Below are positions 26,352 through 41,011 of a stretch of DNA of 64,000 nt, piece after piece. Where the stretch lies: positions 45,322 through 109,321 of the IMG/VR virus record IMGVR_UViG_3300032893_000012. One strand, 5' to 3'. How positions within the stretch are numbered: position 1 is the first letter of the stretch; the number at the start of each line of letters is the position of its first letter. The notes under the pieces are model-generated. The model was not told where the DNA came from and did not search any database. It worked only from the letters and a program-made list of their open reading frames with translations. The position numbers and the translations under genes were made by a program. The DNA is from a virus.

Positions 26352-29228
26352 ATGGCTCATGTAACAGGGCTAAAACGCCGCAGCCCTGAAACGTATGCTG
26401 AGCGGCCGCTCGCAGGTGGTGGCGGAACTGGGACAACGGGACCGACCGGGCCAACAGGGCCGACCGGTCCCTTCGGAATCGGCACCGGTGCGACAGGGCC
26501 ATCAGGAGTAACAGGACCGACAGGGTTCACGGGACCTATCGGTACCGGGCCAACAGGATCGACGGGACCGACCGGCGCGATCGGACCGACGGGTACTATT
26601 TCCGGATCTGGGATGACTGGCGCTCCGGGCTCGACCGGTGCGACGGGTCCCACTGGATCCACTGGCAGTACCGGGTTTACCGGACCAACGGGAGCGACGG
26701 GATCAACTGGGGCAGGAGGGACAGGCGCCACAGGCCCGACCGGCGCCGGCGTCACGGGCCCCTCTGGCGTGACGGGTTCGACCGGCCCAACTGGACTCAC
26801 GGGACCGACGGGCGCTCCGAGCACCGTTACCGGGCCGAGTGGACCGACGGGCGCGACGGGTCCCGCGAGCAACGTCACGGGCCCAACAGGCTTCACTGGA
26901 CCTACCGGAGCGCCCGGATCTGCAACGAATACTGGTGCCACCGGACCAACCGGGGCAACCGGATCGACCGGATCGACCGGCTCCACTGGTCCAACCGGGC
27001 CAACTGGAGCGCCAGGAGTAGCGGCCAACACCGGCGCTACGGGCCCGACGGGTGATGTTGGACCTACGGGAACGACTGGTTTTACTGGACCAACTGGTCC
27101 CGCCGGCAGTGCAACGAACACCGGTGCCACTGGCACCACCGGTGCCACTGGTCCTTCTGGTCCTACTGGGCCAACCGGGCCAACCGGTATTCCAGGCGCC
27201 GCAACGAACACTGGCGCGACCGGACCGAGCGGTGTCACAGGACCGACAGGACCCACTGGATTTACAGGGCCCACTGGATTTACAGGACCAACCGGCTCTC
27301 CTGGAACGGCGACCAATACCGGAGCGACGGGGCCCTCGGGACCGACAGGATCTACCGGATCAACCGGCTTCACTGGACCGACTGGTTTCACCGGACCAAC
27401 CGGCGCCGACGGAACCTCCACCAATACCGGCGCAACGGGGCCAACCGGATGGACCGGTCCTACTGGATGGACTGGCGCGACGGGTCCGACGGGATTCACG
27501 GGTCCTGCCGGAAGCGCAACGAATACGGGGGCGACCGGTCCCACTGGACCAACCGGGTGGACGGGTTCGACGGGATTCACCGGCCCTACCGGAGCGCCTG
27601 GATCTGCAACGAATACCGGATCGACAGGGCCAAGCGGCCCCACCGGATGGACGGGACCCACCGGTCCAACGGGACCAACCGGTGTCCCGGGAAGTGCTGT
27701 AAATACGGGCGCTACCGGTCCAACCGGCTCGACGGGGCCCACTGGGGTGACCGGTTTTACCGGCCCGACCGGCGTCGCCGGAACGGCCACGAACACCGGC
27801 GCTACAGGGCCTACGGGACCATCCGGACCGACGGGACCAACCGGCGTTACCGGACCGACGGGCGCTCCTGGAAGCGCCGTCAACACCGGAGCTACAGGAC
27901 CGACGGGGCCCACCGGGTGGACGGGTCCCACCGGATGGACGGGGCCAACCGGGACTCCCGGGAGCGCAACGAATACCGGCGCCACGGGGGCCACCGGTTT
28001 TTCTGGACCCACAGGACCCACTGGGCCGACAGGACCGACAGGCGTTCCGGGCAGTGCCGTCAACACCGGAGCTACAGGACCGACAGGCTTCACCGGACCG
28101 ACAGGTTTCACGGGACCAACTGGTCCAACCGGCATTCCAGGGGTTGCGGCAAATACCGGCGCGACAGGCCCCACCGGTTTCACTGGACCTACTGGATGGA
28201 CAGGTCCCACCGGCATAACCGGACCGACAGGAATCCCAGGAAGCGCAACAAATACTGGCGCGACAGGACCAACCGGATCCACCGGACCGACCGGATTCAC
28301 GGGATCGACCGGATCCACAGGTCCGACTGGGATCCCTGGTTCAGCAACGAACACAGGGGCGACTGGACCGACGGGACCAACGGGGTGGACGGGTCCCACC
28401 GGATGGACAGGTCCGACTGGGGTCCCCGGGAGCGCAACTAACACCGGCGCGACAGGCCCCACGGGTTTCACCGGTTTCACTGGGCCAACTGGATTCACTG
28501 GACCAACGGGTCCTGCCGGAACCGCTACGAACACCGGCGCGACAGGCCCGACTGGCTACACGGGCCCAACCGGATGGACGGGACCTACCGGCTTCACCGG
28601 TCCGACAGGCATCGATGGTGCGGCGACGAACACGGGTGCGACGGGATCGACCGGACCGAGCGGGCCGACAGGATGGACAGGCCCTACTGGCTCGACCGGT
28701 CCGACGGGGACTGCCGGTAGCGCGACAAACACAGGCGCAACAGGTCCCACCGGCCCCACCGGTAGCGCAGGCACCGCAACGAACACCGGGGCAACGGGAC
28801 CGACTGGATCGGCTGGAGCAGGATCGACGGGGCCGACTGGGCCGACCGGCACTACCACTATTCCGTCCTTTCTTACATTCGCGACTGATGCATCAACCTC
28901 GACTAACGAGTTCTTGGGGCCCTATTCCACTTCGTTCTTCGGGACCGAAGCGGGAGCAACCCTAATCATAAGCGTCGCTGGAACGCTCAAGAACCTACGG
29001 TGCACACTTTCTACCGGCAACATCACGACGAGTTGCACATTTACCGTAAGAAAGAACGGTGTCAATCAAACGTTGGCTGCGACGGTGACGAATGGAACCC
29101 CAAGCGGTAGTGACACGACGCATACTGTTTCTGTCGCCATAGGCGACAAAATATCTGTTCAGGCGAGCGCTAATTCGACCTTTGGCGGCGCTGTCATGTG
29201 GGTCACGATCGATCTGTCGATTCCGTGA
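26352..29228 (+). CDS. Collagen-like fibre protein, Gly-X-Thr repeats (958 aa)
   Basis: After a basic 20-residue N-terminus, residues about 25-833 are collagen-type Gly-X-Y triplets, mostly GPT, GAT, GFT and GWT with Thr in the Y position. They are broken about 21 times by a recurring NTG-type segment ([10 protein letters not shown]). Residues 834-958 form a beta-rich globular domain, probably a trimerisation tip as in BclA-type proteins. The protein should form a long triple-helical fibre on the particle or cell surface. Threonine-rich collagen of this type is heavily glycosylated in Bacillus exosporium, and a large glycosyltransferase/methyltransferase cluster lies just downstream. No signal peptide is seen, which fits a virion fibre better than a secreted protein. 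Confidence 0.88.
26430..28848 (+). repeat. Collagen-coding tandem repeat tract
   Basis: About 2.4 kb of nine-base (GGA CCN ACN-type) triplet repeats are organised in longer blocks of 13-20 triplets ending in the NTGATG motif. The tract is prone to recombination and to assembly collapse. A 725-codon open frame on the opposite strand is its by-product. Confidence 0.85.

Positions 29229-41011: not shown

Follow-up and report, generated by a model that had tools for sequence, protein, structure and literature searches.

A virus that encodes a run of sugar-modifying enzymes beside the gene of a collagen-like fibre raises the question of what these enzymes act on: the fibre, another virion protein, the host surface, or DNA. 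We analyzed such a locus in a stretch of 64,000 nucleotides (the window hereafter), which spans bases 45322-109321 of the 109,321-base IMG/VR record IMGVR_UViG_3300032893_000012. The record carries phage-type replication genes (helicases, and a primase inside the window), and the genes suspected of encoding virion proteins had diverged too far to be named. Open reading frames (ORFs) are mechanical calls, and collagens were called with regular expressions. The enzyme genes form a minus-strand run from position 41375 down to ~29477 (Table 1); they mostly overlap by 4 bases and thus are probably a single transcription unit. None of the enzymes has membrane-like segments. Likely start codons trim several of the ORFs, which leaves the methyltransferase-HtrL fusion at ~538 residues. 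A previous sequence-only reading had the collagen gene followed by the enzymes; the adjoining cluster is there, but the collagen gene is on the plus strand and the enzymes on the minus strand, so they are convergent and do not form one transcript. Its inventory was otherwise recovered: two GT2-containing proteins, two HtrL/YibB-like domains, methyltransferase domains (at least four were claimed, two of them in fusions, and we count exactly four) and two related propeller domains. Absent from it were the GH16 lipoprotein and a second collagen gene outside the window.

Table 1. Fibre gene and convergent minus-strand gene run, in window coordinates.
Position	Strand	Predicted product	Remark
26352..29228	+	Gly-X-Thr collagen-like fibre, 958 aa	proposed glycan acceptor
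29477..30121	-	small secreted-looking protein	3' of enzyme operon
30328..31695	-	GH16-family lipoprotein-like glycan hydrolase	4-base overlap of its start with preceding enzyme gene
31692..33086	-	GT2 fused to Methyltransf_24-like methyltransferase	
33086..33493	-	small protein, N-terminal hydrophobic segment	within operon
33490..33762	-	small protein with hydrophobic segment	within operon
33759..34571	-	HtrL/YibB-like domain protein	ORF to 34631
34568..35353	-	putative MycE/TylE-type sugar O-methyltransferase	DDGxH and ED motifs kept
35350..36369	-	stand-alone GH130-like five-bladed propeller (PROP2)	
36383..36907	-	putative MycE-type sugar O-methyltransferase	
36904..38520	-	class I O-methyltransferase domain + HtrL/YibB domain, ~538 aa	ORF open to 38688
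38484..38864	-	small protein	within operon
38861..41011	-	GT2 (SunS/ThuS/GmaR-like) + TPR + GH130-like propeller	
40992..41375	-	small protein	first of overlapping gene run

The fibre gene had been described as encoding a Gly-X-Thr collagen-like protein of 958 residues, in agreement with our search (Pfam Collagen, E 1e-92). The nearly uncharged product has 239 Gly-X-Y triplets, with Thr at Y in 173 and Pro at X in 97, and consists of an N-terminal docking-like peptide (13 residues, not shown), the collagen region and a C-terminal non-collagen head of ~110 residues. In phage and bacterial collagens, Thr stands where animal collagen has hydroxyproline. A minus-strand ORF at 26357-28534 was rejected as a gene, being the antisense shadow of the collagen gene, and a search for inverted repeats around the fibre gene gave nothing notable. 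The second Gly-X-Thr collagen of the same virus has 1814 residues (L007:4410-9854, minus strand; record 36410-41854), and non-collagen fibre-like genes adjoin it. Collagen and non-collagen fibre genes have in common an N-terminal peptide, rich in G and R/K and then ETYP-like, found in contigs L003, L004, L007 and L018 and in the window gene at 26352, against a reversed-sequence background of one match; this peptide may be a virion docking tag.

The largest enzyme, at 38861-41011, is the most informative about the target. An AlphaFold model built on 37 sequences (mean pLDDT 90) has a GT2 part that resembles ThuS and SunS by structure (E to 5e-14), while profile comparison relates the GT2 region to GmaR and SunS and the helical region to TPR proteins including O-GlcNAc transferase. 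By sequence and model, the protein is thus a predicted SunS/ThuS/GmaR-like peptide glycosyltransferase with TPRs, and we propose that it is an initiating protein O-glycosyltransferase. SunS, ThuS and GmaR are the closest in GT2 fold and sequence among solved structures; SunS and ThuS act on bacteriocin peptides and GmaR on flagellin, whereas the target proposed here is a collagen fibre. The order of a GT-A/GT2 domain followed by TPRs is also the anatomy of SgtA of Clostridioides difficile, a glycosyltransferase with TPRs (358 residues) encoded beside bclA3, which places beta-O-linked GlcNAc on Thr of the BclA3 collagen repeats (PMC7157674). Judged by layout and gene neighbours, a GT-A/GT2 + TPR enzyme near a GPT-rich collagen, SgtA-BclA3 appears to be the closest characterised system; unlike SgtA, the window enzyme is phage-encoded, has a fused GH130-like propeller, and has HtrL domains, another GT2 and several methyltransferases encoded around it. 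Since the enzyme shares the SgtA layout and, across its family, the same genomic company, the likeliest first step would be a reaction of the same type on the phage fibre.

The propeller at the C-terminus of this enzyme and the related PROP2 are the two propellers of the earlier inventory. GH130 beta-1,2-mannobiose phosphorylases match the propeller model (Foldseek, 7fir, E 1.5e-9; also 7fip and 5b0p). The kinship is remote by sequence: Pfam GH130 gave weak matches in 6 of 32 family members (best E 0.003) and none for the propeller of this virus record itself, and comparison with Lin0857 yielded three weak collinear motifs. The invariant residues (E-D-x-R, K-N-W and H) lie in motifs that, in GH130, we take to assist phosphate binding. 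Comparison at the level of motifs rather than mapped residues revealed no clear equivalent of the GH130 general-acid Asp, which leaves transferase, phosphorylase and sugar-binding module as candidate roles for the propeller. Uncharacterised proteins of Pithovirus LCPAC304/404 (BFVD A0A481Z9G3 and others) match the GT2-TPR-propeller model over most of their own length.

The four methyltransferase domains are found at the C-terminus of the 31692-33086 protein, at 34568-35353, at 36383-36907 and at the N-terminus of the 36904 protein. By profile, the two stand-alone ones match MycE (E 1e-34) and demethylmacrocin O-methyltransferase (E 1.5e-32), which places them among the MycE/TylE-type sugar O-methyltransferases. 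Both retain DDGxH; DD, H and E are invariant in their family (A8), with ED kept in the 34568 protein and EG in the 36383 protein; the DDGxH ... ED residues are presumably metal-binding and catalytic, as in MycE. For the methyltransferase domain in the 36904 protein, the resemblance is to SafC, COMT and similar O-methyltransferases of small molecules. A PDB search with the methyltransferase of 31692-33086 returned nothing, and the PHROG label "DNA methyltransferase" on this protein looks like a misannotation, the domain being apparently Methyltransf_24-like. As for the HtrL domains, the one in the 36904 protein scored over the Pfam PF09612 cut-off (33.5 vs 24.1) and under that of TIGR02192, and the 33759 protein was under both (E 0.0024). 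In a model of pLDDT 70, the HtrL half of the 36904 protein resembles ABO/alpha-1,3-GalT GT-A folds (Foldseek E ~1e-4, TM(target) 0.43), and a profile search against solved glycosyltransferases, including GT6, gave no match; we propose on the model that HtrL domains are glycan-extending, GT-A-like enzymes. By homology and models, the kin of these enzymes are peptide or protein glycosyltransferases and O-methyltransferases of sugars, rather than enzymes that modify DNA or lipids. DNA modification is a role often proposed for phage glycosyltransferases; we do not favour it here because the GT2/TPR homologues glycosylate peptides.

If the fibre is the target, enzymes and collagens should be found together elsewhere, a check that the sequence-only reading had suggested. 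Searching IMG/VR for the methyltransferase-HtrL fusion gave five further contigs (45-53% identity), and Gly-X-Thr collagens were present in all six, the window included. The GT2-propeller protein was then used as viral query, and among its best 80 loci, 40 had the propeller and 40 the GT2 only. Gly-X-Thr collagen was found within the fetched 10-kb flanks in 37/40 propeller loci and in 20/40 GT2-only loci, against 1/55 random viral loci, which were picked by an arbitrary 14-base pattern and are about half as long; their shorter length cannot explain the gap between 37/40 and 1/55 (Fisher p ~1e-21, with redundancy still in). Reduced to clusters of 70% identity, under a collagen rule that was made slightly looser, these best matches gave 31 propeller clusters, of which 30 had a collagen, 26 of them at 1.5 kb or less; in the window itself the distance to the enzyme gene at 38861-41011 is ~9.6 kb. 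The viral and genome scans rest on conserved peptides and best matches, so these rates are those of close relatives. Enzymes without a collagen gene were to count against a fibre pathway; the association is not absolute, as the enzyme was found and a collagen was not in a single nonredundant viral locus (L026, a 39.6-kb fragment) and in some cellular metagenome-assembled genomes (MAGs). Conversely, among 108 short (~9 kb) loci sampled for GPT-collagens, one of the enzymes was found within ~9 kb in 21 and none nearby in 87, and therefore the collagen does not need these enzymes.

The separate genes of the window also recur as single polypeptides. One protein of 1098 residues in L003 combines methyltransferase, HtrL, GT2 and propeller; L004 and L018 have HtrL, GT2 and propeller in one protein; and L017 has GT2, methyltransferase, GT2 and propeller, with the same GT2-methyltransferase pair as 31692-33086. 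In all four contigs, the counterpart of PROP2 is the C-terminal domain of the fusion. Fusion of this kind speaks for a joint role of the parts in a single pathway. L016 has most of the window set (methyltransferase-HtrL, methyltransferase, HtrL and GT2-propeller), and in many other loci collagen, GT2-propeller, HtrL and methyltransferase genes occur in close succession. Two isolates are among the examples: in Tunturiibacter phage Tunturi_5, the GT2 gene and a Gly-X-Thr tail fibre lie ~4 kb apart, and in Synechococcus phage DSL-LC02 a propeller gene is flanked by a collagen-like gene on one side and two FkbM methyltransferase genes on the other. Overall, the link of the enzymes to the fibres is strong.

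The association extends to cellular bacteria. Among the matches listed for GTDB, propeller-less GT2 homologues had a Gly-X-Thr collagen at 42/59 loci, usually as the adjacent gene, with examples in Streptomyces, Acidovorax and Bacillus. Counted without redundancy, 20/31 of these listed cellular loci had a collagen, 18 of them at 1.5 kb or less, compared with 111/819 for the other long ORFs of collagen-bearing cellular loci. Several MAG loci had the enzyme and no nearby collagen. Eight cellular genomes with a propeller locus lacking a nearby collagen were searched entirely: six have a collagen elsewhere, and in the other two no collagen was found. The bacterial GT2-TPR with adjacent Gly-X-Thr collagen (L274-L353) is likely a common collagen glycosylation pair.

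We therefore favour, with a probability of about three in four, that the operon is a phage pathway that glycosylates its own collagen-like fibres with a methylated glycan in the host cytoplasm, before virion assembly. The sequence-only reading had suggested a virus-encoded methylated-glycan pathway of this kind, which collagen co-occurrence and enzyme homology support, the methylated coat itself being a prediction. The scheme that we infer, from acceptor site, sugars and linkages to the order of steps and the role in the virion, draws on gene anatomy, homology, fusions and collagen association. The TPRs of 38861-41011 would dock the fibre, and its GT2 would place the first sugar on the Y-position Thr of Gly-X-Thr, a reaction modelled on SgtA acting on BclA3. 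Extension or trimming of the glycan would then fall to the other GT2, both HtrL domains and the GH130-like propellers, and the sugars would be O-methylated by the MycE-type and the other class I methyltransferases. Nucleotide-sugar epimerase and pyrophosphorylase/NTP_transferase genes were not found in the virus record, and hence the donor sugars are expected to be supplied by the host. The glycan may stiffen the triple helix without hydroxyproline, and may shield the fibre or tune its binding to the host.

Three other explanations account for part of these observations. The enzymes could alter the host surface (O-antigen, capsule or another glycan), blocking superinfection or changing receptors, with the fibres nearby because the region is shared among host-interaction genes. 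This is the usual role given to phage glycosyltransferases in papers on aquatic phages (PMC7029224, PMC10202952); it would fit an operon that ends in a GH16 lipoprotein, the target of which is perhaps a host-surface glycan, and the relatives of one methyltransferase domain that occur in cyanophage clusters of nucleotide-sugar and glycosyltransferase genes. We consider it unlikely, as the GT2 has TPR-bearing enzymes that modify peptides or proteins as its closest solved relatives, the bacterial homologues adjoin collagen genes, and the glycan enzymes are free of membrane-like segments; nor was a polyprenol-linked glycosyltransferase or a flippase noticed in passing. Even less probable is that another virion protein, such as the capsid or tail tube, is the target and the collagen neighbourhood is secondary. 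In mycobacterial prophages, relatives of one methyltransferase adjoin a glycosyltransferase gene near terminase and portal rather than a fibre, HtrL/YibB and glycosyltransferase genes are present in an F1 mycobacteriophage (PMC10453261), and the glycosyltransferases of F1 phage Maravista have been suggested to glycosylate its capsid (PMC11256854). The F1 phages thus resemble our locus in having phage glycosyltransferase, HtrL/YibB and MycE-like methyltransferase genes (the last in related prophages), and differ in that the stretch examined has no Gly-X-Thr collagen gene; it is the proximity of GT2-propeller and collagen, at 1.5 kb or less in 26 of the 31 nonredundant clusters among the best 80 viral matches, that speaks against this target here. 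Finally, given that phage fibre regions are hypervariable and that gene order and fusions vary across the contigs, recombination might have gathered fibres and assorted sugar enzymes that do not act on each other; the same domain fusions recurring, the strict overlap of the operon genes and an adjacency that is seen in cellular chromosomes too make this the least probable of the three.

The sugars of Bacillus BclA are on Thr and include methylated rhamnose. BclA had been the parallel first drawn for this locus, and the idea of a glycosylated collagen-like filament is kept; it is, however, a spore (exosporium) protein modified by host-encoded enzymes, and SgtA-BclA3 is the better parallel. Mimivirus L230, which hydroxylates Lys and adds glucose to hydroxylysine of viral collagen-like proteins (PMC9614988), is likewise a virus-encoded enzyme glycosylating viral collagens, of another enzyme family and with another acceptor residue. 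Glycosylation is treated as exceptional in a review of bacterial collagens (PMC8968730), and in phages with collagen-like genes the glycosyltransferases have been explained as DNA or host-surface modification (PMC7029224, PMC10202952). We found no description of phage collagen glycosylation cassettes in the open-access papers searched, which speaks only weakly for novelty. If collagen genes do come with a glycosylation pathway of their own, this would help explain the use of Thr, and would hint that the virion, not DNA or the host surface, is the target of many phage "auxiliary" glycosyltransferases; the enzyme set could be tested for making glycosylated recombinant collagens. More tentatively, and at somewhat under even odds in our judgement, this would be a widespread and hitherto unrecognised collagen O-glycosylation system of phages, bacteria and possibly giant viruses. 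Its GT2-TPR enzyme, in many cases with a GH130-like propeller fused to it that transfers or trims sugars itself, would build methylated glycans on Gly-X-Thr collagens; these would replace proline hydroxylation and give phages a sugar-armoured collagen fibre.

Several minor observations were made along the way. The small protein at 29477..30121 has relatives elsewhere in the related contig G001. By eye, a GH16-like ORF also adjoins the collagen gene of contig L004 (19587-20732), and within the collagen and glycosylation cluster of the same contig a radical-SAM-like ORF is split by an intein-like stretch (L004:11556-14231, plus strand). The window has a weak LAGLIDADG_3 match, just under the cut-off, at 5577-7208 (minus strand), perhaps an intein or homing endonuclease. 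Lastly, tandem isochorismatase-, vWA-, PP2C- and kinase-like genes were noted by eye at 46792-50847 (plus strand), with weak PHROG matches; they are perhaps a phospho-signalling set.
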